Shown here one piece after another: positions 1-16,502 of a DNA stretch of 20,318 bases. Below the pieces are notes generated by a model. It did no database searches and was not told where the DNA came from. It saw nothing but the letters and a program-made list of their open reading frames with translations. This DNA comes from a virus. The stretch spans positions 1 through 20,318 of the IMG/VR virus record IMGVR_UViG_3300008339_000659; one strand, 5' to 3'. A program made the position numbers and the translations under genes. The stretch's first letter is position 1; each line of letters starts with the position of its first letter.

Positions 1-711
1 TTCTTCATTTAAATCTTCATAACTTTTAACTTTTAGTATTGGTAAGTCTGTCCAATCATCATAAATGTAATTATCTATAACTATTGGAATACAACCCAAA
101 TATAAACTTTCCCATGTTCTATGACAATCTATACCATTTCCAGGGGGTGAAATAACAAATAAACTCTTAGACATATTTATCGCATACTCATCAAAAGATA
201 AATTTGATTGATATATTAATGGTAATTTATTTTTATTTAAAATATTCAATATATTTTTTCTATTTGGATTTGTTAAATTCCAATTACAATAAATTGTAAA
301 TTCTTTTTTATTATTTTTTAATGTTTGTATATTTTGAACAAACCATTTAGTCATATATTGTGGTTCATAAAATGGATCTTTGTGGGTTTTTAGACCCAAG
401 GGTATTGATATCAAATCCTCACAAATGTGTGTTGGATTTATAGCAAACCATTTATGAATGCTATTGGGCTTTTTACTATATCTAAAATTATCAATTGGAT
501 AATCTGAGTGATGAGTTATTAGTAAATATTTTTTATTTGACTCTCGTATATTATCAAATAGATAATTTAAATCATCAGTTTTACAAAAAATAATACAATT
601 TTTATTTAATATTTCTTTATCAAATAATTTATTATATGATAAAACTATGGAATAGTCTGCTATTTTTTCATAATTTGCAGCATTTAAAATATTATCAATT
701 TCTATTTCCAT
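1..711 (-). CDS. Exostosin-like glycosyltransferase, 3' end outside window (partial)
   Basis: An open frame of 237 codons begins with ATG at 711 and runs off the left edge without a stop, so the C-terminus is missing. The translation begins MEIEIDNILNAANYEK. Near residues 188-211 it has a motif SPPGNGIDCHRTWE followed by SLYLGCIPIV. This S-P-x-G-x-G...R-x-W-E...G-x-I-P-V pattern is typical of the nucleotide-sugar-binding half of exostosin/GT-B-type transferases, where a conserved E and a Pro-Val strand follow the glycine loop. The gene overlaps the end of the preceding gene (695-1393) by 17 bases, which points to co-transcription and coupled translation. The role is inferred to be sugar transfer onto a glycan; donor and acceptor are unknown. 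No signal peptide or membrane segment is visible, so it should act in the cytoplasm. Confidence 0.75.
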   Translation of the reverse strand, partial: MEIEIDNILNAANYEKIADYSIVLSYNKLFDKEILNKNCIIFCKTDDLNYLFDNIRESNKKYLLITHHSDYPIDNFRYSKKPNSIHKWFAINPTHICEDLISIPLGLKTHKDPFYEPQYMTKWFVQNIQTLKNNKKEFTIYCNWNLTNPNRKNILNILNKNKLPLIYQSNLSFDEYAINMSKSLFVISPPGNGIDCHRTWESLYLGCIPIVIDNYIYDDWTDLPILKVKSYEDLNEE

Positions 712-1393
712 GCCTATCTACTAATATCCAATCATCGCTGTAGCCGTGTTCTTTAGAGTACTGATCAATTTGGGGGATATACATTATATTTTCATTATAC
801 ACCATTAATGATAATATTGCTTGATCGTGTCTATGATCTATAAAATCTTTAAAATTATCCATTCTTATATTTGGTGTGTCTTCTATTAATCCTGGAATTA
901 AACAATTTTCTAACCATTTTTCAACAAATGAAACAGAATATGAACATTTTCTAAAAAATAGATAGGTCGCTTGCATTTGATTTTCTTCAGAAAAATCATT
1001 TTTATTATTTTTATTCAGATAGAAAAAACAATCACCTTTAGTCCATTTTGAAGTTTTTTGCTTCATTGAAAAATTCAAAACACCTTTATGGTTTATCATT
1101 CTTAAAATATTATCTACATTTTTTATTATTTTTGCGCCAGAATCCATATAAACTAAATACGAATCATTTTCTATTTGATTTAATGTTTTTAAAATCAGAT
1201 AAGGTTTCCATAACCAATATCCAGCACCTCTACTTTGACTTAAAATTTTATTATTTTTAATTTTAAAAGTTTCATCTATATCATTATTATTATATCCTTT
1301 AGAAATAAATCCAAAAGATTCTGCACTTTTTAAACCAATTTGTTGGCTATTTAAAAATCCATTATTTGCATAATTTATAAAATATTTTTTCAT
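695..1393 (-). CDS. Glycosyltransferase-like protein (GT-A-like)
   Basis: 232 residues. The motif RGAGYWLWKPYL (about 55-66) followed by SYLVYMDSGAK (about 79-88) resembles proteins found in bacterial capsule and polysaccharide loci, where the D-S-G segment takes the place of the metal-binding DxD of GT-A transferases. The C-terminal half contains DHRHDQAILSL (about 186-196), a typical acceptor-side motif in these proteins. The start at 1393 is one base after the stop of the upstream gene, so translation is probably coupled. There is no signal peptide or transmembrane segment. The family call rests on motif resemblance only; sugar donor and acceptor are not deducible. Confidence 0.65.
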   Translation of the reverse strand: MKKYFINYANNGFLNSQQIGLKSAESFGFISKGYNNNDIDETFKIKNNKILSQSRGAGYWLWKPYLILKTLNQIENDSYLVYMDSGAKIIKNVDNILRMINHKGVLNFSMKQKTSKWTKGDCFFYLNKNNKNDFSEENQMQATYLFFRKCSYSVSFVEKWLENCLIPGLIEDTPNIRMDNFKDFIDHRHDQAILSLMVYNENIMYIPQIDQYSKEHGYSDDWILVDRHGNRN

Positions 1394-1394
1394 T

Positions 1395-2003
1395 TTAAGA
1401 TGCCGATCTACTAATATTGGTATTATACAGATATTTATGTAATACTTTATCTATTTTATAGCTACTCTCAACCCTTTTACTCATTTTACTTACCCAATCA
1501 GCATCCTCGCAGGATTCATTATATTGATTTCTTATCTCTATAAATTTTTCATTTTTTGCCAATTCAGATCTCCAAGCACACAAATGCCATGCTGGTCTTT
1601 TTACTTTATAATTTGGATTTGTTTTTAAATAATTGTAATCAACACCTTCTATTGCGTTTCCATGATCAAAAGTAACATAAAATTCAAATCCATTTACATT
1701 ACAATACTGATTGAATGTTATTACATCATATTTATTATCTCTGCATATTGGGACCAATTCTTTAAAATAATCATCAGTAATGTCGTCATCATCGTCTAGA
1801 AACGCAATATAATTTCCATTCGCTATACTTAATAAATCATTTCTCTTTTCAGTTATTGATTTTTTTCTATTATCTGTCAAAATTAATATTTCCACATCTC
1901 CATAAGAACAAAGGGAATCTAATTTTTTAAATAACTTATTAGCCAGATCCAATCTTTCAGTTATCGATAATATTAAAACTGATAAACAAATATTTTTTTT
2001 CAT
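1395..2003 (-). CDS. Family 2 glycosyltransferase
   Basis: The likely start is the ATG at 2003, because its ATGA overlaps the stop of the upstream gene; an in-frame ATG five codons earlier (2018) is less likely. This gives about 202 residues. The N-terminus MKKNICLSVLILSITER is the first beta strand of a GT-A fold, and FLDDDDD (about 68-74) is the DxD metal/nucleotide-sugar site. A later segment, RPAWHLCAWRSELAK, matches the acceptor-side part of family 2 enzymes. It is shorter than many GT2 proteins (250-300 residues) but contains the whole catalytic core. It should transfer a sugar from a nucleotide-activated donor in the cytoplasm. Confidence 0.8.
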   Translation of the reverse strand: MKKNICLSVLILSITERLDLANKLFKKLDSLCSYGDVEILILTDNRKKSITEKRNDLLSIANGNYIAFLDDDDDITDDYFKELVPICRDNKYDVITFNQYCNVNGFEFYVTFDHGNAIEGVDYNYLKTNPNYKVKRPAWHLCAWRSELAKNEKFIEIRNQYNESCEDADWVSKMSKRVESSYKIDKVLHKYLYNTNISRSAS

Positions 2004-2737
2004 AAAGAATTTTTCCAATTTATTTTTGGAGATAAAAGATCTCCATGTGTTGCATACCCAGGTATTGGACTTATCATTAATCTATGTCTAATATCAGTTA
2101 GGGTACAAAAAAGCTCATAATCTCCTGGTATTTTTCTATAAGGATGTTCATCAACATTCAATAGCAATAATGAAGCTTTAAATACATTCTTATCCTCTTT
2201 TAGAGTAATTACCTTAGATGCGAATGTCATTGTTGCAGTATTAACTGTTCTCCAATAATCATTAATACCAAAAAATATTTCACTCTTATAGCTTTTAAAA
2301 TTTTCAAATATATAATCTATTTCTTTATTATAATTTATATTAAAATGTTTTTTATATCTTTCTGGACTATCGTATAAATTTACATAATCTGCCCTACAAT
2401 AATTAAATGCTTCATTTAAAGCATTTCTTGAATATTGTCTGTGAAGATAATCATTTTCAACAAAATAAATTATATCATCATCTTTATTTTCTGTAATTGC
2501 TTTATTATATGTAAAATCAAAACTACCACAGTTTCCCAAAGATGTTCTTATCACTTCCACCTTATATTTTTTCAACCACTGCATCGTTTCGTCTGAAACA
2601 TTATCTGCAATAATTACTAATTCTGATTCATTTACTTCAAAATTTTTAATAAAGTTATTTAAACAATTTTCATTTGTAAAATATTCGGGAGCCTTACCCC
2701 TTCTATTATTATCAGATAATCTATAATAAATTTTCAT
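2000..2737 (-). CDS. Putative glycosyltransferase, GT-A-like
   Basis: 245 residues, starting MKIYYRLSDNNRRGKAPEYF. The N-terminal part contains VIIADNVSDET (about 41-51), then GSFDFTYNKAI (about 71-81) and IIYFVENDYLHR (about 89-100). The order N-S/T...N-x-A-x followed by an acidic E-N-D after a hydrophobic strand mimics the nucleotide-sugar pocket of family 2 transferases, with END in place of DxD. The start shares bases with the stop of the upstream gene (TAATG), and its own stop overlaps the next start (ATGA). It is probably part of the same polycistronic unit. I recognise the fold class but not a named family. Confidence 0.6.
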   Translation of the reverse strand: MKIYYRLSDNNRRGKAPEYFTNENCLNNFIKNFEVNESELVIIADNVSDETMQWLKKYKVEVIRTSLGNCGSFDFTYNKAITENKDDDIIYFVENDYLHRQYSRNALNEAFNYCRADYVNLYDSPERYKKHFNINYNKEIDYIFENFKSYKSEIFFGINDYWRTVNTATMTFASKVITLKEDKNVFKASLLLLNVDEHPYRKIPGDYELFCTLTDIRHRLMISPIPGYATHGDLLSPKINWKNSL

Positions 2738-3288
2738 TATCTTCTCTTTAGTATCAAAAATCCATTATTGTTTGTATATTCTGATTCAATATACCAATGA
2801 GAATTTTCTTTCAAAAATTCAATAATTGCTTTATAGATTCCACATCCACCTCTTTCTCCCCTCTCTCTAAAACTAATTGTGTCATGAAATATCAAATATT
2901 TCTTAGCTTTATTTCCATGTAATTCTAATTCTTTTTTCATTTGGTCATATTCGTGAAGTGTATCTATGAATAGAAGATCACATTCCTCTATTTGAATCTT
3001 TGTGGTATCACCTAGAATAAACTGATAATCAATCCCGCAATCTTTTGCTGCTGAATAAACTTCATCTATATTTCCACCCCATTTGGATGGTGGTTCTATA
3101 TCATATGATATCATTTTAGTAGGTTTACCAGCAAGCATAGCCCATGTACTTACTATTCCACGGACACCAAATTCTACAACATTTTCACACTCTTCAACAT
3201 AAGATTGTAGTGTAGGAAGGTGTTGGTGTATATCTGATGGGGCTGAACAATAATATTGGTATTTTGTATTAATTACAGAACAATTCAT
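2737..3288 (-). CDS. Class I SAM-dependent methyltransferase-like protein
   Basis: 183 residues. VVEFGVRGIVSTWA (about 37-50) matches the glycine-containing motif I of a small methyltransferase group related to CmcI/Methyltransf_24. ISYDIEPP (about 60-67) supplies the acidic residue expected after strand 2, and LLFIDTLHEYD (about 105-115) plus YLIFHDT correspond to motifs IV and V. The predicted substrate is a sugar or glycan, given that it sits among transferase genes, but this is inference. It overlaps the start of the downstream gene region by 20 bases and the 5' end of its own message lies inside the upstream gene. No membrane segment is present. Confidence 0.7.
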   Translation of the reverse strand: MNCSVINTKYQYYCSAPSDIHQHLPTLQSYVEECENVVEFGVRGIVSTWAMLAGKPTKMISYDIEPPSKWGGNIDEVYSAAKDCGIDYQFILGDTTKIQIEECDLLFIDTLHEYDQMKKELELHGNKAKKYLIFHDTISFRERGERGGCGIYKAIIEFLKENSHWYIESEYTNNNGFLILKRR

Positions 3289-3940
3289 GTTTTTTATCCT
3301 TTAATATTTCAATATATCTCTTACCATGAAATCCAAAACAATTTTCAAGTTTATGGTCTTCCGAAATTGGTATCTCTACTGAAAATTTTTTTGCCAATTC
3401 CACTGGAGCAAATTTGATACCATTTTCTTCTAACATTTTTCTGACCACTACCGAAATTGTTACATCCTCATTTGTTAATGATTGTTTATGAAATTCTCTA
3501 AATCCAGATATTTTATTTGTCATATCATATAATTTTCTAGAACGAATAGAAAATCCACCATTACCCACCACTGGACTATTTCCTGTCCATCTCATTCCAG
3601 AAGGCCACGGTGCTCCGATATAATCGTAGTTTAAAAAATCGTCATCCCATAAATTATAATTTATTGGAAATCCATCAGTCTGAACAACCATGAAATATTC
3701 AGAATCTGAATAGTTAATTAATTTTTGAAATAACAATTCATTTAAATCGCAATAATTTAAAATATCAATATACTTAACATTAAATTCATTGTTGTTGTAT
3801 TCTTTACTTGGTGTTAAAAACAATACTTCAGATATAAAATAATTTAAATTAGTTAAAATATTTTTAGCAATATTTTGATACTGTTCAGTTTCAGTTCCAA
3901 GGCCATCCACTATAGTTAGTGCTATATTTTTTATATTCAT
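3269..3940 (-). CDS. DUF5672-type glycosyltransferase-like protein
   Basis: Start chosen at the ATG at 3940 because it forms an ATGA overlap with the upstream stop and follows a GAAGATGTGAG purine tract; an ATG six codons upstream (3958) is in frame. The protein has about 223 residues and begins MNIKNIALTIVDG. Landmarks are MVVQTDGFPIN (about 84-94), YDYIGAPWP (about 105-113) and VGNGGFSIRSRK (about 125-136). This combination (QTDxF, DYIGAPW, GNGGFSxR) is what I know as the DUF5672 family, found in polysaccharide loci and giant-virus or phage genomes and regarded as glycosyltransferase-like. The donor sugar is unknown. Confidence 0.75.
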   Translation of the reverse strand: MNIKNIALTIVDGLGTETEQYQNIAKNILTNLNYFISEVLFLTPSKEYNNNEFNVKYIDILNYCDLNELLFQKLINYSDSEYFMVVQTDGFPINYNLWDDDFLNYDYIGAPWPSGMRWTGNSPVVGNGGFSIRSRKLYDMTNKISGFREFHKQSLTNEDVTISVVVRKMLEENGIKFAPVELAKKFSVEIPISEDHKLENCFGFHGKRYIEILKDKKHELFCN

Positions 3941-4578
3941 CTCACATCTTCTAAACAATGATGATCATCTGGTCCCTTCCAATATGGCCCAGGAACATTT
4001 GGTGGAATTCCATAACCTCTAAATTTATGCTTATGCCAAACCCTAACATCCTTTGCAGGGTTATACACCCTGTATTTAGCTTCAACAAAACACTGCATTA
4101 TTCTCAAATCGCAAGAATAGTAACCTATTGGAAAATCTCCATTTTTTACTTTAGACTTTCCCCTCCATACCCAAACATCATTTGACTCTGGTGCTGCTCT
4201 TCCATTTTGATGAAAACCATTTATAAAATAATGATCATCTTCTGGATACCATCTACTCAGGCCAATGGCAATTTCATCTGTAACTTTTTCATCTAATTCT
4301 AAAATACTATAATCAAAATAAATATCAGAATTTGCTATAAAATTTAGATCTTCTGGATTCGAAGCTTCTTCTAGATTAAATATATCTTGATATTTTGTTC
4401 TTTCACCAAATGGGTAAATTTTTGTAATTTTTGAAGAAAAAACAGGCAACTCTTCCTTCGTTATGACAAAAATATTATCAAAATATTTTAATTTTGCATT
4501 ATTTATTAGGCAGAAATCATATTCACTTTGCCTGTGTTGATTGTCTGTTTTGATATACTCAACAAATAAATTTTTCAT
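3937..4578 (-). CDS. Putative glycosyltransferase of a phage/capsule-locus family
   Basis: 213 residues. The protein starts MKNLFVEYIKTDNQHRQSEY and contains DLNFIANSDIYFD (about 77-89), a hydrophobic strand followed by an N-S-D segment in the position of the DxD motif. It then has VWVWRGKSKV, YYSCDLRIMQCF and RVWHKHKFRGY. Proteins with this layout occur as uncharacterised transferases next to other sugar genes. The start codon at 4578 overlaps the stop of the upstream gene by one base (TAATG), so it is likely translated by reinitiation. The catalytic role is inferred from motif and neighbourhood, not proven. Confidence 0.55.
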   Translation of the reverse strand: MKNLFVEYIKTDNQHRQSEYDFCLINNAKLKYFDNIFVITKEELPVFSSKITKIYPFGERTKYQDIFNLEEASNPEDLNFIANSDIYFDYSILELDEKVTDEIAIGLSRWYPEDDHYFINGFHQNGRAAPESNDVWVWRGKSKVKNGDFPIGYYSCDLRIMQCFVEAKYRVYNPAKDVRVWHKHKFRGYGIPPNVPGPYWKGPDDHHCLEDVR

Positions 4579-5243
4579 TATATAATACCTTTGTTGGTGT
4601 AGTAAGTATTTTTTGCAGAATTTCCAATAATTTGTTCTTTATTCTGCCCCATGTCTATTAGACCTCTTATTTTTGAATCTCCATCCGAAATACCCATCAC
4701 AATCACAGCATCATCTTTATTGTAATTTGAATCAGCGAATAGACAAAAATTAGATCCAACTAAACCAATTTCAATCTGAATTTCTTCCAAAACTTCCAAC
4801 ATAATTTCGTGATCAAAAAACTTTTTTTCATTTTTTAAATAATACTCGCACTTTTCAATCCATTTATTGATAAATTCAAATGATTTTTCATTTCCACTTA
4901 AATATATTGGAGATGCCTTTGGAATAAAATTTCCCTTTTCATTTATACTATTAGTGGCAAAAACAACATCAGAATTTATATTTTCAAACATATCAAGTTT
5001 TTTATAAACATAACTGTCAATGTCTAGCCAAATAACTGGACCGTTAATTTTTTCCATACACTTTAGTATAAACGAAGGTTTATATAAACAATTAGATCTA
5101 TAAGAACCTCTTGATGTAATTTCTTCAACATAATATGGCATATTTAATTTTTGCATATTTTTAATAAAATGAAATGCATGTGAAGAATAATAAGTATTAT
5201 TTGTATCTACATCGCAAAAGTATGATATTACTGTAGTTTTCAT
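4578..5243 (-). CDS. Nucleotide-diphospho-sugar transferase-like protein, tandem copy A
   Basis: 221 residues. GSYRSNCLYKP (about 46-56) and VIWLDIDSYVYKKLD (about 70-84) carry the D-I-D motif expected to bind the metal and nucleotide sugar. Later come ASPIYLSGN and FFDHEIML, then IVMGISDGDSK near the C-terminus. The same landmarks in the same order appear in the gene immediately upstream (5240-5923), so the pair looks like a tandem duplication that has diverged strongly. The start overlaps that gene's stop (ATGA). The layout is like the nucleotide-diphospho-sugar transferase families related to PF03407; substrate unknown. Confidence 0.65.
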   Translation of the reverse strand: MKTTVISYFCDVDTNNTYYSSHAFHFIKNMQKLNMPYYVEEITSRGSYRSNCLYKPSFILKCMEKINGPVIWLDIDSYVYKKLDMFENINSDVVFATNSINEKGNFIPKASPIYLSGNEKSFEFINKWIEKCEYYLKNEKKFFDHEIMLEVLEEIQIEIGLVGSNFCLFADSNYNKDDAVIVMGISDGDSKIRGLIDMGQNKEQIIGNSAKNTYYTNKGII

Positions 5244-5923
5244 GATTGTACTAAAAATTTATTTCCTGGGCATTGAAATCTTATATTATTTTCATCAAAT
5301 CCCATTTTTCTAAGAGATTCTTCTTTTGATTGACCATCGGCCAATCCCATAGTAATTATTGGCTCCCCACCAATAACCTGCAAACCAGGCCAAACGCAAT
5401 AAGCATTACTTAAACATGCCATCCTAATGCCTGTATTTTCTGTTATAATTTTATTAAAAATACCCATTAAGACCTCATGGTCAAACATAGTATCTCTCTG
5501 ACTTTCCACCTGTTCGCTCGCTTCTATCCAAGCATACATGAATTCTAATGTCTTTGGTGTATAGTTAACATAGATTGGAGAAGCTTTTGGTAGAGCTATT
5601 GATGGATCTTCTTTTGTTGGAACCTTTGGAAAGGCAAATCCAACATCGACTTTATCTTTAAATTCATCAAAAACATCTAATGATTTATGTACTATAGAAT
5701 CTATGTCTAGCCAAACTAATGGCTTTCTAAATTCATTCATCATATCTAAAATAAATCTAGGTTTTGACAGACAATTGGATCTGTAAGATCCTTTTGATTT
5801 TTTCTCCCTTATTATGTGGGGAATTCCTAAATTATCTAAATTTTTAGTTAATCTTTTAGAGTGATCGCTATAATAGGTGCGACCATCAACATCAGAATAA
5901 AAAGAAATCACTGGAGTTATCAT
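5240..5923 (-). CDS. Nucleotide-diphospho-sugar transferase-like protein, tandem copy B
   Basis: 227 residues starting MITPVISFYSDVDGRTYYSD. WLDIDS (about 71-76) supplies the D-x-D site. GSYRSNCLSKPRFILD, ASPIYVNY, FDHEVLMG and ITMGLADGQSKEE match the downstream paralogue. The start at 5923 has no Shine-Dalgarno sequence in front of it; a T4-type late promoter box ends only seven bases upstream (5931-5938). If transcription begins at the usual distance, the mRNA leader would be a few bases or none. This gene is therefore probably the first cistron of a late transcript covering the leftward glycosyltransferase genes. Confidence 0.65.
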   Translation of the reverse strand: MITPVISFYSDVDGRTYYSDHSKRLTKNLDNLGIPHIIREKKSKGSYRSNCLSKPRFILDMMNEFRKPLVWLDIDSIVHKSLDVFDEFKDKVDVGFAFPKVPTKEDPSIALPKASPIYVNYTPKTLEFMYAWIEASEQVESQRDTMFDHEVLMGIFNKIITENTGIRMACLSNAYCVWPGLQVIGGEPIITMGLADGQSKEESLRKMGFDENNIRFQCPGNKFLVQS

Positions 5924-5930
5924 GGTCTAG

Positions 5931-5938
5931 TATTTATA
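5931..5938 (-). promoter_or_regulatory. T4-type late promoter box for the glycosyltransferase operon
   Basis: The minus strand reads TATAAATA, followed by CTAGACC and then the ATG of the 5240-5923 gene. The extended T4 late consensus is TATAAATACTATT, so eight box bases plus CTA match. The box overlaps the last codons and stop of the GT10 gene. It implies recognition by gp55-RNA polymerase with the gp45 clamp, both encoded in this window. In AT-rich DNA a chance match is possible; position directly before a start codon argues against chance. Confidence 0.65.
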
Positions 5939-6776
5939 AATTTTGAATTAGTTTATACAGAACATCGTCTGCATTTTCCATCTTATTTACCTTTTCAAAA
6001 TTTTCCCTTATTGCTTCAATTTTTGAGTAGTATAGCTCTGGTGTCAATGAGTTGATATCGAAACTAGAATCTAATGTTATTATTCCATCAGCGTTGAAAT
6101 AATTGCCAATATCTTTGGTTCCCCAGTAAACTGGTATAGTCCCCGTTGCGAAGCAGTCTGTTATCTTTTCTGTAAAATATGTACTATATCGATCATTCTC
6201 AATCACTATGGAGAACATGTAGTCATTCATTGCTTTTGATTTGTCACCCCAAGGTTTTTTCTCATAACCAAATCTCGGAGAACCTAGAACACCACCAAAA
6301 AGATCAACTTTATCTTTAAATTTTTCAGCAAAATGATGTCTTAATTCATGACCTATCGTCAATTTTTTACTAGATGCAATCATGGATGCTATTTTAGTTT
6401 TATCGAAAATTTTTCTATCTTCTATCCACGGCAAATTGCTTCCAGCAAACGAAAATTTAAAGTTGTTAAACTTTTCACAATATTCTCTATCCGAGATATA
6501 AACAGCATCAAAAGAGTCATTGATCAATTGTGCGTTTTGATCGAATAGGTGTTTGGGTATGTACATACCAAAAAAAATTGCTCTGGATTCGCATATCCAT
6601 GCAATTTTCTTTTCCCCTGGTTTCTTTTTGTAATTTATACCGTGAGGTATTGCTGCATCTATAAAAACTTTAATATTACAATCTTCAGCTGTCCAAGAAA
6701 AATATTTTGGTTTTAGATCAGAACAGGATGAAAGATTGATATCAAACGGTGCTCCAAAAGCTTGCATTAAATCCAT
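5934..6776 (-). CDS. Family 10 (alpha-1,3-fucosyltransferase-like) glycosyltransferase
   Basis: 280 residues. The C-terminal half carries the GT10 signature: SIVIENDRYSTYFTEKI (about 189-205) followed by TGTIPVYWGTKDI (about 211-223). This corresponds to the GDP-fucose-binding motif IENS/D...Y.TEK...G..PVYWG, with the Glu, Asn and TEK residues all present. LTIGHELRHHFAEKF (about 139-153) is the start of the donor domain. The N-terminal acceptor part is short, as in bacterial and phage members. It starts six bases after the regA stop with AGGAAAG upstream, so it is probably read from the replication-gene transcript; ATG at 6767 is an alternative start. It occupies the place of T4 gene 43. The expected reaction is fucose (or related sugar) transfer from a GDP donor; the acceptor is unknown. 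Confidence 0.85.
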   Translation of the reverse strand: MDLMQAFGAPFDINLSSCSDLKPKYFSWTAEDCNIKVFIDAAIPHGINYKKKPGEKKIAWICESRAIFFGMYIPKHLFDQNAQLINDSFDAVYISDREYCEKFNNFKFSFAGSNLPWIEDRKIFDKTKIASMIASSKKLTIGHELRHHFAEKFKDKVDLFGGVLGSPRFGYEKKPWGDKSKAMNDYMFSIVIENDRYSTYFTEKITDCFATGTIPVYWGTKDIGNYFNADGIITLDSSFDINSLTPELYYSKIEAIRENFEKVNKMENADDVLYKLIQNL

Positions 6777-6780
6777 ATAG

Positions 6781-7188
6781 TCACTTTCCTATATGGTATT
6801 TAGGTATCAATTCCCAATCCTTTTTATCTCCATGTGATAAAATTTTAATTCTTGCTAGGCTTATTTGTGGATCTCTGTAATCTTCGGAGTTTATGGCTTG
6901 GCATAAACCCCACTCAACCAAAAGTCTTACTATTGTATTTCTTCTTGAAATGTCCTCGTCGGATAAGTCACTTTCTAGATCATCTAATAAAAACATCTCT
7001 TTAAAGTGCAAAATCCAATATCTTGATCTTTTGTGTAAGATATGACAAGATTGGAACAATTTTTTATCTTTTTTTGAGGAAACGCCAATTCTAGTTAAAG
7101 TTTCTTTTATTTTAAGAAAATCTTCTTTAGAATTTAATTTAATCTCTACACCCAAACCATCCATTATTTCATCTACAGTATCTTCCAT
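6781..7188 (-). CDS. regA: RegA translational repressor
   Basis: Collinear with T4 RegA over its whole length: VEIKLNSKEDFLKIKETLTR, then KKLFQSCHILHKRSRYWILH and FKEMF, then DISRRNTIVRLLVEWGL, and a C-terminus ending LIPKYHIGK against T4 LVPKYTIGN. RegA binds AU-rich sequences around start codons of early mRNAs (genes 44, 45 and others in T4) and blocks initiation. Two in-frame ATGs exist. That at 7188 has GGAG nine bases upstream and is preferred (135 residues); that at 7203 adds MEFLC and lacks a Shine-Dalgarno. Even from 7188 the protein has about 14 residues before the point where T4 RegA begins. It lies just upstream of a glycosyltransferase rather than DNA polymerase. Confidence 0.95.
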   Translation of the reverse strand: MEDTVDEIMDGLGVEIKLNSKEDFLKIKETLTRIGVSSKKDKKLFQSCHILHKRSRYWILHFKEMFLLDDLESDLSDEDISRRNTIVRLLVEWGLCQAINSEDYRDPQISLARIKILSHGDKKDWELIPKYHIGK

Positions 7189-7202
7189 ACATAAAAACTC
7201 CA

Positions 7203-7228
7203 TAAATTATAATATTATTTATAATTTA
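7203..7228. repeat. Perfect AT-only inverted repeat in the regA leader
   Basis: TAAATTATAA at 7203-7212 and its exact reverse complement TTATAATTTA at 7219-7228 flank a six-base loop. The element covers the bases directly before the upstream regA ATG and contains the late-promoter-like box. In RNA it would form a weak all-AU hairpin; it could serve as a protein or RegA site, or be chance in AT-rich DNA. Confidence 0.6.
7216..7223 (-). promoter_or_regulatory. Late-promoter-like box upstream of regA
   Basis: The minus strand reads TATAAATA, ending 12 bases before the first regA ATG (7203). A transcript starting six or seven bases downstream would have a leader of about 20 bases up to the second ATG, with GGAG correctly placed. 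T4 regA is early/middle, and the box lies inside an AT-only palindrome, so function is uncertain. Confidence 0.4.
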
Positions 7229-11586: not shown

Positions 11587-12629
11587 AATGACATGCTTTC
11601 TATGTAGAGATCTTTTATTATGGTTTTAACTTTTTCTTTATTTTTGATCTGTTCGGTGTTGTCTATTTCTTTTGCTATGATTGTCAGCGTATCTTGTGTG
11701 ACATCAACATCATCTTCTTTTTCTTGTTGATTGTCAAGATCCTCTATTATAGTAAATTCTTGAGGCTCGTTTGACAGAATATAATCGACATATTGTTCAA
11801 ACTTTTTCTGTCTTTTTTTGTTGATAACCACTAATTTTATATAACAATTCTTAATAGACTCTGGGTTTAATTTTTCAACCTCATTGTCAGTTGAATCGTC
11901 ATATTTCAAAACATGGAATATTTTTCTAGTATTTTCTATAAATTCCAATTCCCGTGTTTTGGTATCCAATACAGTGAATCCCTTTTTACAATTTATATCT
12001 CCAAAATTCATCTGATACTGCGATCCGAGATAATGAATATTGCCTCTTGATTGCCTTATATGAAAATGACCAGATAGAACTTTATCAAACTTATTGAACA
12101 TCTGCTCATCATTTCCAGAAGAGTGCTTTATTCCAGTAATAATCTCAAAACCATTAATCTCAAAATGTCCAACCAGTATTGAGGCTGATGTTGAATTTAT
12201 AAATGAATAACAAAGATCCTCATTGTCTTTGGTTATCCACGGAACTAATCCAAGCTTTAATCCATCCAAATATAATTCTGTTGGATTTTCAATTATATTA
12301 AAATTATCATAAAAAGAAAATAATTCTTTTATAGAATTAATTGCATTTGTATTTTTAAAATAAGTATCGTGGTTGCCGATAGTTAAATAGACATTTATAT
12401 CATTGTCTTTAAAAAAAGATGCAAATCTTTTATGAATCTGATTGAGTGTGAAAAAATTCACATATTTTCTTCTATCCAATAAATCGCCCATGTGAATCAC
12501 ATGTCGAATCTTATTTTCTTTAAGATATGGAAAAAATACATTTTCAAAAAAACTCAAAGATTCCTCAAGAAAAAAAGAAGCATCATTCTTATACCCGAAA
12601 TGGGTATCGCTAATTATAGCAATTTTCAT
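11583..12629 (-). CDS. 47: Recombination nuclease subunit gp47 (SbcD/Mre11-like)
   Basis: 348 residues (T4: 339). All phosphoesterase motifs are present in order: ISDTHFG (6-12), MGDLLDRR (47-54), TIGNHDTY (83-90), LVGHFE (152-157) and SGHFHIRQ (186-193). These supply the Asp, His and Asn ligands for two metal ions. The C-terminal hundred residues are charged and low-complexity, ending QKKFEQ... and a helix likely to bind gp46. It forms the nuclease complex with gp46 that processes double-strand breaks. Its start overlaps the gene 55 stop (ATGA), and the purine-rich end of gene 55 serves as its ribosome binding region. Confidence 0.97.
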   Translation of the reverse strand: MKIAIISDTHFGYKNDASFFLEESLSFFENVFFPYLKENKIRHVIHMGDLLDRRKYVNFFTLNQIHKRFASFFKDNDINVYLTIGNHDTYFKNTNAINSIKELFSFYDNFNIIENPTELYLDGLKLGLVPWITKDNEDLCYSFINSTSASILVGHFEINGFEIITGIKHSSGNDEQMFNKFDKVLSGHFHIRQSRGNIHYLGSQYQMNFGDINCKKGFTVLDTKTRELEFIENTRKIFHVLKYDDSTDNEVEKLNPESIKNCYIKLVVINKKRQKKFEQYVDYILSNEPQEFTIIEDLDNQQEKEDDVDVTQDTLTIIAKEIDNTEQIKNKEKVKTIIKDLYIESMSL

Positions 12630-13171
12630 TTCTTTTTCTTTCTTTTTCTCTTTCCCTTTGCTTCTGTTTCTTTTTCTAATTTTTCTAAATCATGCTCTGA
12701 TAAGAAAAAATTTCTCTGAATAAATTCGGATAGAGTCGCAGATTCATTGTTTTCTCTCAACCATTCAGTATACTTTGAATCTATATCATTATGCTGCATA
12801 CACTTATATTTTATATAAGCTTGTTTTTTTTCTTTATCTATTCTTCTAAGAAAAGCATAATATATTATTTGTGTAAAGTATGAGAATGGATTTTCCGATT
12901 TTTGATCATCGAAGTTATGTGCGTATTGTAGGCAGTTTTCCACCCCATCGCTAACCATATCTTCTCTAAATGGGTAGTTTATGAAATTAGGTCTTCTTGA
13001 CAATCTATCTGCTATTTGATAAAAACAAAGACCAATATAATCAGTCACTGGTGGCATTGGCTTGTTTTTTAATTTTGCTTCGTTTACAATGATTTTCCAT
13101 TTGTTCATTGCAGACAAAAATTCATCGTTATCAACATAATGTTTGTCTTTTTTCTTTTCTGCTTTGCTCAT
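12626..13171 (-). CDS. 55: Late transcription sigma factor gp55
   Basis: Start at ATG 13171, giving about 181 residues (T4: 185); a GTG five codons earlier is in frame but overlaps a promoter. The core IADRLSRRPNFINYPFREDM followed by VSDGVENCLQYAHNFD, then NPFSYFTQIIYYAFLRRIDKE is the sigma region 2-like part of gp55, which recognises the TATAAATA late box. The C-terminus ends in a run of basic residues, KGKRKRKKKK. In T4 the gp55 C-terminus is a hydrophobic/acidic motif that binds the gp45 clamp, and nothing like it is visible here. No Shine-Dalgarno precedes the start; a sigma70-type promoter ends six bases upstream. Confidence 0.95.
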   Translation of the reverse strand: MSKAEKKKDKHYVDNDEFLSAMNKWKIIVNEAKLKNKPMPPVTDYIGLCFYQIADRLSRRPNFINYPFREDMVSDGVENCLQYAHNFDDQKSENPFSYFTQIIYYAFLRRIDKEKKQAYIKYKCMQHNDIDSKYTEWLRENNESATLSEFIQRNFFLSEHDLEKLEKETEAKGKRKRKKKK

Positions 13172-13177
13172 AACAAT

Positions 13178-13205
13178 ATTATACACATTTTTATTAAAAC
13201 TTCAA
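13178..13205 (-). promoter_or_regulatory. Sigma70-type promoter for gene 55
   Basis: On the minus strand TTGAAG, a 16-base spacer, then TATAAT. The -10 box is a perfect consensus and ends six bases before the gene 55 ATG at 13171. Transcription would start at or within a base or two of that ATG. It is the only clear host-type promoter in the leftward replication block and fits early or middle expression of the late sigma factor. Confidence 0.7.
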
Positions 13206-13227: not shown

Positions 13228-13256
13228 TTGACAGGTTTTAATAGGTCTAATATAAT
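13228..13256 (+). promoter_or_regulatory. Perfect-consensus sigma70 promoter facing rightward
   Basis: TTGACA at 13228-13233, a 17-base spacer, then TATAAT at 13251-13256: both hexamers and the spacer match the ideal host promoter. The predicted start is near 13263. It points rightward, against every gene in the window, into the 3' end of the 13299-14009 gene. No plus-strand coding frame with a ribosome binding site follows, so the product would be an antisense or small RNA. Confidence 0.75.
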
Positions 13257-13285
13257 TGTTGTGTGGTATTAAGGAAGATTGGGTT

Positions 13286-13304
13286 TCTTAAAGGTTCTTT
13301 AAGA
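13286..13304. repeat. Inverted repeat (hairpin) over a stop codon
   Basis: TCTTAAAG (13286-13293), loop GTT, CTTTAAGA (13297-13304): an exact eight-base stem. It covers the stop codon of the 13299-14009 gene. Neither strand has a run of T after it, so it is not a standard terminator. It also lies 20-40 bases after the predicted start of the rightward promoter. Confidence 0.6.
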
Positions 13305-14009
13305 GTAATCATCACTAAGTGGATCTGGATTCCAATCTGAGAATTGATTTCCAAAGTCTTCTCTACCCTTTTCATCCCCAGTAAATTTATTTCTCTTTTT
13401 GATCTCATCGATCATCTTAAGCAACATATCTGGTTCTAGAATACCAGAAGTGATTAAATTCATGATGGCTTCTGGTGGAATAACCATATTAAGATATAAC
13501 ATTGGTCTTTCCTTAAGTTCGTCTGGAATCATTGGATTCTTAAGAACTTCTTTCTTTTTTCTTCTTTTCTTTCTTCTTTTATTTCTCATTTCCTCATCTA
13601 CTGCATGTAGATAATCTTGAGAAATATCAGAATTTAATTCATTTAGAAATGAGTCTAAAAAGTCTCCGACTTCATTCGACATATTTTCTATATTAGTTTT
13701 CATCTGAGATTCATCTACTGGTTTTTTCTCATTGTCTTCTCTTTCCTTTTCACCATCGTAGATTGATGAACACTTTTTGCTTGGTTCTATAATTGCAACA
13801 ATTCTATCTTTTTTGATCTCAATTGTCTTATCATCGCTGTTGTGTAGCCAATCTCTTAAAAAGGTAACATCAACAGCCATGCCATTATTACCAGACATAG
13901 TAGAACTAATAAAAACCATTGGCCTTTCAATTAGAAGGCTTGTTTCGTTTTCAACAACAGAACCTATCAATTCTTCACCATTATTGAGTTTTAATATTTT
14001 ATATCCCAT
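13299..14009 (-). CDS. Sm-like (LSm/SH3-barrel) domain protein with basic tract (236 aa)
   Basis: 236 residues. The first 75 look like an Sm fold: KILKLNNGEELIGSVVE (4-20) is the glycine-containing Sm1 strand pattern, LLIERPMVF follows, and IEIKKDRIVAIIEP (63-76) closes the barrel. A linker rich in E, D and K follows, then an extreme basic tract, RNKRRKKRRKKK (142-153), and a helical C-terminus (PPEAIMNLITSGILEPDMLL). A strong AGGAGG lies four bases before the ATG and overlaps the uvsW stop. Genes of this kind between uvsW and 55 occur in marine T4-like phages as conserved hypotheticals. RNA or nucleic-acid binding is inferred from the fold and basic tract; function is unproven. Confidence 0.75.
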   Translation of the reverse strand: MGYKILKLNNGEELIGSVVENETSLLIERPMVFISSTMSGNNGMAVDVTFLRDWLHNSDDKTIEIKKDRIVAIIEPSKKCSSIYDGEKEREDNEKKPVDESQMKTNIENMSNEVGDFLDSFLNELNSDISQDYLHAVDEEMRNKRRKKRRKKKEVLKNPMIPDELKERPMLYLNMVIPPEAIMNLITSGILEPDMLLKMIDEIKKRNKFTGDEKGREDFGNQFSDWNPDPLSDDYS

Positions 14010-14017
14010 ATTTCCTC

Positions 14018-15487
14018 CTAAAGTCGAATTTTCTTGATATTGTAGTTGAACTTCTCTTTATTATATATCTTGATTCTTTCATCAAAATGTCTTAGGGTAT
14101 GGTTTCTGTAGGATTTCCAACATAGATCATCCGCAATATCAAATAAAATCACTGAATCTTTCGTATCTGACTTTCTAAGACCTCTACCAATCGATTGTAA
14201 TACTCTAATTACAGATTTTGATGGCGAAGCAAATACGATAGCATTGATGTTTCTTATATTTATGCCTGTACTGCATGTCCCATATGAGGCAACTAGAACA
14301 CTGTTTTTATGATTATCCACAACTTTTCTTATTTGTTCTCTTTCTTCGATATCTGTTTTTCCACTAATCATAAATGTTTCTTTTCCAGATTCCTTCTTTA
14401 TTTGATCATAGAGTGGTATTCCATGCTTATCAACATAATTGAATAAAACTAAAATATTTCCAGATATGTTTTTACATAATTTTGAAATAAAATTATTTCT
14501 TTTTTTGTTGCAAATCAACCATTCCATTTCATCAGCATATCTGGCTTTTTTAACACTTTCATATTCTTTTACATCGTAAGATAAAATTACAGAATTAATA
14601 TTCAATGTCGATAAGATCTTATCATCCATTAAATTTTTAGTTGTAGTTACAGAATGAACCCTACCAAATAGACCTTCTATTATCAGTTTATGTGCTTGTG
14701 TATTGTCTAGTGTACCAGTTGTACCGATTCTAAATGGAGTATTCAAAAGCTTTTTCATTATAGAAGATAGAGATTTAGCCTTATATAGATGGACTTCATC
14801 ACCAAAGATTCCATGATAATTTGAAAAATAATCGTGATCTTCTCTAAAGATACTTTGCCATGTTGAAATTGTTATTCTTTTAGATGATGTTTTTTCTTGT
14901 CCCTGAAAGATAAGATGAATTTGTCTTAAAAAATCCTTGTCTGAGTTTGAGTAATCTTTAAAATCAGAAGCAAGCTGAGTGACAAGACCTGTTGTTGGTA
15001 CAAGAATTAAATATTTTGTCGAATCAAAGTTTTCAAGTAAAAATTTTAATGTTAAATAGATTATTAGTGATTTTCCAGAACCTGTTGGGGAAACCAGTAG
15101 TATTCTATTATTTTTAATTGATTCTTTTACAGCACTAAGTTGATAATCGTGCGGTGTTATTTGCTTTTTATTTGAATATATAATTTGCTTATTTAACCAT
15201 TCGTCAATGTAAGAATCTTCAAATGGAATTTTTTCAAATCCATCAAGAGAGTATTGATACTTTCTTTCATTTAAAAAATGTTCTATATAATCAACCAATC
15301 CAGAATATATCGTCCTTGAAGCGTAGTTGAATAACTTTATAGTTCCATCCCATTTTTTCTTTTTAAATGCTGGAGTGTATTGATGATTTGGAACTTTGAA
15401 TGTAAAAAAAGATGAAATTTCTTTTGCGATAGAATCATCACAATGAACTTTTATAAAAACTTCATCTAGTTTTTCTATTCTTATCAT
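14018..15487 (-). CDS. uvsW: UvsW RNA/DNA helicase
   Basis: 489 residues from ATG 15487 (TGATG overlap with the uvsY stop; TTG at 15490 is less likely). Superfamily 2 motifs: SPTGSGKS (133-140), ILVPTTGLVTQLASDF (161-176), GDEVHL (229-234), GTTGTLD (255-261), and near the C-terminus VLVASYGTCSTGIN and QSIGRGLRK. The end, EKFNYNIKKIRL, matches T4 EKFNYVMKTVNL. UvsW unwinds R-loops and branched DNA, shutting off origin replication and promoting recombination-dependent forks. The P-loop here is canonical, whereas T4 has the atypical PTSAGRS. It is translationally coupled to uvsY, its recombination partner. Confidence 0.96.
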   Translation of the reverse strand: MIRIEKLDEVFIKVHCDDSIAKEISSFFTFKVPNHQYTPAFKKKKWDGTIKLFNYASRTIYSGLVDYIEHFLNERKYQYSLDGFEKIPFEDSYIDEWLNKQIIYSNKKQITPHDYQLSAVKESIKNNRILLVSPTGSGKSLIIYLTLKFLLENFDSTKYLILVPTTGLVTQLASDFKDYSNSDKDFLRQIHLIFQGQEKTSSKRITISTWQSIFREDHDYFSNYHGIFGDEVHLYKAKSLSSIMKKLLNTPFRIGTTGTLDNTQAHKLIIEGLFGRVHSVTTTKNLMDDKILSTLNINSVILSYDVKEYESVKKARYADEMEWLICNKKRNNFISKLCKNISGNILVLFNYVDKHGIPLYDQIKKESGKETFMISGKTDIEEREQIRKVVDNHKNSVLVASYGTCSTGINIRNINAIVFASPSKSVIRVLQSIGRGLRKSDTKDSVILFDIADDLCWKSYRNHTLRHFDERIKIYNKEKFNYNIKKIRL

Positions 15488-15921
15488 CAAACACCTTGTG
15501 TAAATTTAATCCAATCAATTGCAGCCCTTACAGACCACATTTTATTGGAAATTGCCTTTACAATTCCCTCAATGTAATTTACTTTTTCTTTTTGATATTC
15601 TATCTTCAAATTTAATTGACAGATATCATTATCACTTTCGATGAACTTGTCTAAGTCTTGTCTTATAAGAGAAAGTTCAAAGGCTTCCCAATTTAATTCA
15701 GCCAATCTTTCTTCACTCATTTTTCCAGAGTAATATAACCATTTATCTCTTTTTAATTTTGATAAATCGGTTTCGTACTTTGAAAGTATAAGTTTTTCAT
15801 CAAACAAAATGCAAAGATATTTGTTATGTTGCTGTGGTATAACAGTAGCTTCATAATCTAAATTTGTTTTATCGATGGAAAGATCTTTATCTGCTTCTTT
15901 TTTAATTTCATCTAAATTCAT
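15487..15921 (-). CDS. uvsY: Recombination mediator UvsY
   Basis: 144 residues (T4: 137). The N-terminus LDEIKKEADKDLSIDKTNLD followed by YEA parallels T4 LEDLQEELKKDVFIDSTKLQYEA, and LKRDKWLYYSGK parallels KARLDYYSGR. The C-terminus VKAISNKMWSVRAAIDWIKF matches the T4 helix LDAIKSRGFAIKHIQDMRAF. UvsY forms hexamers that load UvsX recombinase on gp32-covered single-stranded DNA. It lies one base after the following structural gene's stop and overlaps uvsW, the same pairing as in other T4-like phages. Confidence 0.93.
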   Translation of the reverse strand: MNLDEIKKEADKDLSIDKTNLDYEATVIPQQHNKYLCILFDEKLILSKYETDLSKLKRDKWLYYSGKMSEERLAELNWEAFELSLIRQDLDKFIESDNDICQLNLKIEYQKEKVNYIEGIVKAISNKMWSVRAAIDWIKFTQGV

Positions 15922-16494: not shown

Positions 16495-16502
16495 TATTTA
16501 TA
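16495..16502 (-). promoter_or_regulatory. T4-type late promoter
   Basis: The minus strand reads TATAAATACTATT, a full match to the extended T4 late consensus, and the next three bases are the ATG of the 15923-16489 gene. With the usual start distance transcription would begin on that A. The box directly follows the terminator stem, so the T-rich tail and promoter share bases. Confidence 0.85.

Follow-up and report, generated by a model that had tools for sequence, protein, structure and literature searches.

Based on sequence comparison, we propose, with a probability of about one half, that an early promoter of the host-sigma70 type makes a cis-antisense transcript that would restrain the late Sm-like-domain and uvsW genes until gene 55 acts. 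The promoter, TTGACA-17-TATAAT, was found in a 20,318-base virus fragment from IMG/VR, which was analyzed as the whole record and is called the window below. Early in infection, host polymerase would transcribe gene 55 in one direction and, at the same stage, the antisense promoter would direct a non-coding RNA into the Sm-like gene from its 3’-end and on towards uvsW. The transcript would act in cis through polymerase collision and RNA pairing, holding leaky Sm-like and uvsW expression low until the gene 55 protein turns on the late promoters. We infer that the promoter fires in infection, that it does so at this time, that its RNA extends this far and that uvsW/Sm-like expression is lowered. 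The features of the window that bear on the proposal are as follows.

12626-13171 (-), gene 55, the late sigma factor
13178-13205 (-), gene 55 promoter TTGAAG-16-TATAAT, predicted to start transcription at the A of the gene 55 ATG (leaderless)
13228-13233 (+), -35 box TTGACA of the antisense promoter, seen in the sequence and kept in relatives
13251-13256 (+), -10 box TATAAT of the antisense promoter after a 17-base spacer, seen in the sequence and kept in relatives
13257-13281 (+), start region found constrained by comparison with relatives: T(-1)G(+1)T, where +1 is G13263, then a purine-rich tract (GGTATTAAGGAAGATTGGG)
13263-13298 (+), predicted 5’ part of the antisense RNA ahead of the Sm-like stop codon, placed from the position of the -10 box
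13286-13304 (+), 8-bp hairpin TCTTAAAG-GTT-CTTTAAGA overlapping the Sm-like stop codon, present but not conserved
13299-14009 (-), Sm-like-domain gene, 236 aa, antisense to the predicted RNA
13921-13940 (+), weak, non-conserved terminator-like hairpin (GGCCTTTCAATTAGAAGGCT TGTTTCGTTT), a possible end point of the antisense RNA
14018-15490 (-), uvsW helicase gene, the next gene antisense to any longer read-through RNA
15487-15921 (-), uvsY

The site at 13228-13256 (+) has the hexamers TTGACA and TATAAT within the 16-18 spacing of sigma70-type early promoters, and it was the sole 12/12 site among 119 promoter-like matches in the window. The exact pattern TTGACA-17-TATAAT occurred once in the record, compared to zero occurrences of a reversed-pattern control. 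An earlier note on this DNA had described a perfect plus-strand promoter that opposes every gene; the match is indeed exact, and all identifiable genes of the window are on the minus strand. The predicted antisense start, G13263, lies 7 bases past the -10 box and 36 bases before the Sm-like stop codon, and by position and orientation the predicted RNA overlaps the Sm-like gene from the opposite strand. The coordinates also agree with the claim that the promoter lies back to back with that of gene 55, with 22 bp between the two -35 boxes. As previously noted, no plus-strand coding frame follows the promoter in the window, and we found none conserved among relatives. The gene 55 mRNA would be leaderless not only in the window (13169-13205, minus strand) but also in 18 of 48 pelagiphage-like loci.

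The minus-strand order is uvsY, uvsW, the Sm-like-domain gene and gene 55, followed by genes 47, 46, 45, 44 and 62, with genes 44-47 and 62 assigned by order and length. The promoter sits at the boundary between a late block (major capsid gene, uvsY, uvsW, Sm-like) and an early block (55-47-46-45-44-62). Late-type TATAAATA boxes lie ahead of the late block at 16502, 18008 and 18979 in the window, and no strong early promoter was found among the TATAAATA boxes upstream of uvsY-uvsW-Sm (16502, 18008). In T4, a late promoter drives uvsW, and the UvsW helicase unwinds R-loops at origins (PMC3016281). The unwinding of origin R-loops would be a reason for keeping uvsW silent early, if it carries over to the marine phages, where uvsW is probably expressed late by analogy with T4 and from the motif positions only. 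The Sm-like assignment of the neighboring gene was borne out by membership of the Pfam Sm_like family, mainly via the P-RSM4 homologue (E=1e-43); the window protein scored E=4e-4, under the curated cut-off. A PDB sequence search using the Sm-like homologue gave no match, and a single-sequence AlphaFold model of the Sm-like protein was uninformative (pLDDT 43). Elsewhere in the window, a run of minus-strand genes at 695-6776, downstream of a regA-like gene at 6781-7203, resembles glycosyltransferases or sugar-modifying enzymes, as named by eye.

We gathered gene 55 loci by profile searches and from isolates, and scored 180 non-redundant loci for the best antisense-strand promoter within 160 bases upstream of gene 55 at a threshold of at least 10/12. 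The promoter was recovered in 82/82 cyanophage-type loci and in 52/98 other loci. The background, taken from 4,579 other 160-base windows of the same loci, was 3.8% at ≥10/12, 0.46% at ≥11/12 and 0.13% at 12/12. The loss of both hexamers in close relatives had been named as grounds for abandoning the promoter; both were 12/12 in L001-L012. Among these, L003-L012 (gene 55 about 71-73% identical) have diverged in the sequence of the spacer and flanks, yet have the same hexamers and 17-base spacing. The named relatives were Kyanoviridae, comprising the pelagiphages HTVC008M and Mosig, the methylophage Melnitz and cyanophages. The antisense promoter is TTGACA-17-TATAAT in HTVC008M, TTGACA-16-TATAAT in Mosig, TTGACA-17-TAGAAT in Syn1 and S-RSM4, and TTGACA-17-TACAAT in P-SSM2; Melnitz kept TTGACA with the -10 box off its usual distance. 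P-RSM4 also carries it, and a scan of that whole genome returned the locus as the only intergenic antisense site at ≥11/12. These comparisons indicate that the predicted promoter is conserved beyond neutral expectation. HTVC008M (L113) has two more 12/12 consensus promoters, at 23571 (-) and 19462 (-), which run antisense to structural genes, either inside them or at their margins.

What argues most strongly for a function on the antisense side is the linkage of the promoter to the 3’-end of the Sm-like gene. The Sm-like gene adjoins gene 55 in 133 of 135 promoter-bearing loci. The earlier note had placed the promoter ‘next to gene 55’; its tie is to the Sm-like gene instead: 14 loci that were scored negative (L045, L051, L054, L061, L068, L071, L075, L077, L088, L092, L094, L098, L104 and L105) carry the promoter (10-12/12) directly behind the Sm-like gene, as far as 900 bp from gene 55, most having scored negative because of intervening genes between the two. 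Since the promoter stays at the Sm-like 3’-end, it belongs with the Sm-like/uvsW side and not with gene 55. The same split loci make it unlikely that the promoter is a partner of gene 55, setting gene 55 output by polymerase competition or divergent supercoiling with the RNA as a by-product. That explanation draws on the back-to-back arrangement and on the cyanophages, in which the two promoters overlap and the predicted starts are mostly 54-78 bp apart, with clusters at 54-55, 63-65 and 72-78 bp. In many of these divergent pairs (L116-L195), one TTGTCAA heptamer serves as the -35 box of both promoters. However, the starts are mostly 75-128 bp apart in pelagiphages, and the conserved motif in the start region would be left unaccounted for. 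Because polymerase could not occupy both promoters simultaneously where they have TTGTCAA in common, effects on gene 55 such as competition may add to the antisense action in cyanophages.

The earlier note had suggested an undescribed small RNA or antisense regulator. A deeply conserved, gene-less promoter that faces Sm-like/uvsW held up, and an antisense transcript would be the best reading; Rfam, folding and synonymous constraint gave no sign of a structured small RNA. The eight-base hairpin is present in the window, but it is lost in the L003-L012 alignment, and folding of the window RNA was no better than that of shuffles (z -0.17 to -0.34). We therefore rejected a conserved RNA hairpin at 13286-13304 on both its loss in relatives and a z of about -0.2 to -0.3. 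A search of Rfam 15 gave no match for the antisense RNA at or above the gathering threshold. Shine-Dalgarno-preceded ORFs of at least 30 aa were found behind the promoter in 3 of 134 loci compared to 5 in shuffled sequences; with antisense ORFs at the shuffle level and none conserved, a hidden small protein was discarded. The synonymous positions of the Sm-like gene beneath the antisense RNA carried no excess conservation, and a sequence-specific antisense RNA body was dropped for want of such constraint. The lack of extra synonymous constraint would make an effect in cis likelier than a sequence-specific RNA.

Within the antisense RNA, 16 of 126 loci have terminator-like sites compared to 9 in shuffled sequences, and seven of the 16 came from one clade; such sparseness counts against the antisense-silencing proposal. 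The individual sites include ACGACGC-loop-GCGTCGT-TTTT at +296 in the L003-L012 clade, a 10-bp stem followed by T7 at +137 in AG-345-P14, and a site at +65 in L042.

Beyond the -10 box, information is confined to about 25 bases, and the constraint is strongest over +1 to +17. The start region reads T(-1) G(+1) T(+2), followed in cyanophages by N-A-G-G-G-T-T-(C/G)-A and a run of purines. The TG[TC] triplet was absent at the expected place in only 2 of 140 promoter-bearing loci; the loci were anchored on TG[TC], so the invariance of TG is built in. The start sequence differs strongly between the pelagiphage and cyanophage groups, and the motif is mostly absent from other early promoters of the same genomes. 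A leaderless GTG start codon at +1 was considered and rejected, as its third base varies.

In many relatives the start is spanned by an inverted repeat. Of 123 distinct sites, 26 had perfect stems of 5 bp or longer, compared to about 4 expected from letter shuffles, and the 26 sites hold 21 different arm pairs (for example AGGCA/TGCCT, GGTCTA/TAGACC, CACTGT/ACAGTG, AACAG/CTGTT and CAGGA/TCCTG). Against arm-swapped controls, which ignore relatedness, the observed value was 3.46 versus 2.96 (sd 0.11) for the pelagiphage type and 4.24 versus 3.91 (sd 0.057) for the cyanophage type. The repeat of the relatives is not present at 13257-13281 of the window. If transcription starts at G(+1), the RNA lacks the left arm, and any action of the repeat would be at the DNA level, either as an operator or as a non-template-strand hairpin. 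An attempt to assign the repeat to a strand from an excess of G-T over A-C pairs was abandoned, as the arm-swapped controls had a similar bias. The antisense-silencing proposal gives the inverted repeat no role. Only tentatively do we extend the proposal to an antisense switch common to Kyanoviridae and Emdodecavirus (the Sinorhizobium phages discussed below), in which an early promoter whose start lies in a co-varying inverted repeat would fire against uvsW/Sm-like and delay the passage from origin-driven to late recombination-driven replication.

The same promoter and start motif were also found in the sense orientation before small early ORFs in P-RSM4, P-SSM3, Syn1 and S-RSM4, at the following positions.

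P-RSM4 53297 (L207 about 2298) (+), sense copy
Syn1 16536 (L208 about 2040) (+), sense copy
P-SSM3 131822 (L209 about 1823) (+), sense copy
S-RSM4 177761 (-), sense copy

A motif scan of IMG/VR with the cyanophage form returned 80 sites, 63 of them antisense at Sm-like/55 and the other 17 mostly ahead of early-looking ORFs. The use in sense before early ORFs suggests that this is a working promoter type. We discarded an autoregulated repressor behind the sense copies, since the downstream genes in P-RSM4, P-SSM3, Syn1 and S-RSM4 look unrelated. The copies ahead of unrelated ORFs look as if the promoter module had been shuffled within genomes.

The concentration of constraint in +1 to +17 could also be read as a trans-acting small RNA that regulates mRNAs of the host or the phage through its first ~20 bases (GU.AGGGUUCAAGG type), possibly chaperoned by the Sm-like protein. 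The terminators at +65 to +315 in some relatives and the Sm_like family protein encoded by the adjoining gene would fit such an RNA. We consider it quite unlikely, since the pelagiphage and cyanophage start sequences are strongly unlike, ordinary early mRNAs would carry an identical leader, and the window RNA folds at the shuffle level and has no Rfam match.

The oriF origin of T4 is near uvsY. The gene-less promoter beside uvsW/uvsY could likewise serve as a replication origin, its RNA priming the leading strand via an R-loop as at oriF. This would agree with the inverted repeat at the start site of many relatives and with the T4 origins, where promoter transcripts serve as primers (PMC3016281). 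Two results render an origin promoter improbable: GC skew had no consistent extreme at the site in five genomes, so that an origin could not be placed by this means, and the same module is also found ahead of ordinary early ORFs.

Outside Kyanoviridae, gene order is the same in the Sinorhizobium phages phiM12 and phiN3 (Emdodecavirus), which have an antisense TTGACA-16-TATAAT in the corresponding position, with a start palindrome. In phiM12, a 12/12 promoter and the start palindrome CAGGA-ATG-TCCTG are followed by a 50-aa annotated ORF on that strand (L368 2107-2259, minus strand). In phiN3 (L370 800-1200) the frame is shifted and unannotated, and a related C-terminus can be read in a different frame. 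Either the promoter predates the ORF-less condition or Emdodecavirus acquired the ORF. The small annotated ORF directly downstream of this promoter in phiM12 counts against the antisense-silencing proposal. The phiM12 ORF and the frame-shifted remains in phiN3 would be expected if the promoter had ancestrally driven an opposite-strand protein gene that persists in Emdodecavirus, and had been retained elsewhere by inertia. Such a remnant is distinctly improbable, given that inertia would not preserve both hexamers together with the start motif in all 82 of the diverse cyanophage-type loci, which have no conserved ORF. A chance consensus match, as might be expected of an AT-rich genome with 10/12 matches in 3.8% of windows, is refuted by the position, orientation and hexamers kept across the two phage groups.

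The literature searched, which left out the Syn9 transcriptome, the PeSL papers and the T4 genome review, held no description of this antisense promoter. Antisense and small RNAs of T4-like phages have seldom been characterized: a 2010 review knew of no functionally characterized trans-acting small RNA in T4 (PMC3014915), and a single confirmed antisense RNA has been described in cyanophages (PMC2984593). Kept at the same position in almost all the marine T4-like phages examined, such a promoter would count as a core element of regulation, and its carriers rank among the most abundant viruses of the sea.

Antisense RNAs and stem-loop early promoters are already known in T4-like phages. The sigma70 early promoters of marine T4-like phages are TTGACA-17-TATAAT and are used by unmodified host polymerase (PMC2984593); the promoter described here differs in that it points against all genes, lacks an ORF and has a common start-region motif. 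CfrI of cyanophage S-PM2, an experimentally shown antisense RNA of about 225 nt at psbA and a homing-endonuclease gene (PMC2984593, PMC5931967), resembles our candidate as an antisense RNA of a T4-like cyanophage against phage genes. In contrast to CfrI, the uvsW/Sm-like/55 site is a prediction, and almost all of the Kyanoviridae examined share it. Antisense transcription of T4 gene 32 (Belin 1987, as cited in PMC3014915) is a further case of antisense RNA against a gene of a T4-like phage, at another locus and in another phage group. The PeSL cassettes of T4-like phages (Arbiol 2010, Comeau 2014), as far as they are outlined in PMC4503421, consist of an early promoter with a stem-loop and are copied around the genome. 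The window has the promoter and no inverted repeat, many relatives have the repeat as well, and copies occur at several places in the genome, as with PeSLs. Unlike PeSLs as outlined there, which are mobile cassettes between ORFs of hypervariable regions, the promoter described here occupies a fixed core locus with minor sense copies; its inverted repeat straddles the predicted start, and its main copy is antisense and ORF-less at one conserved locus.
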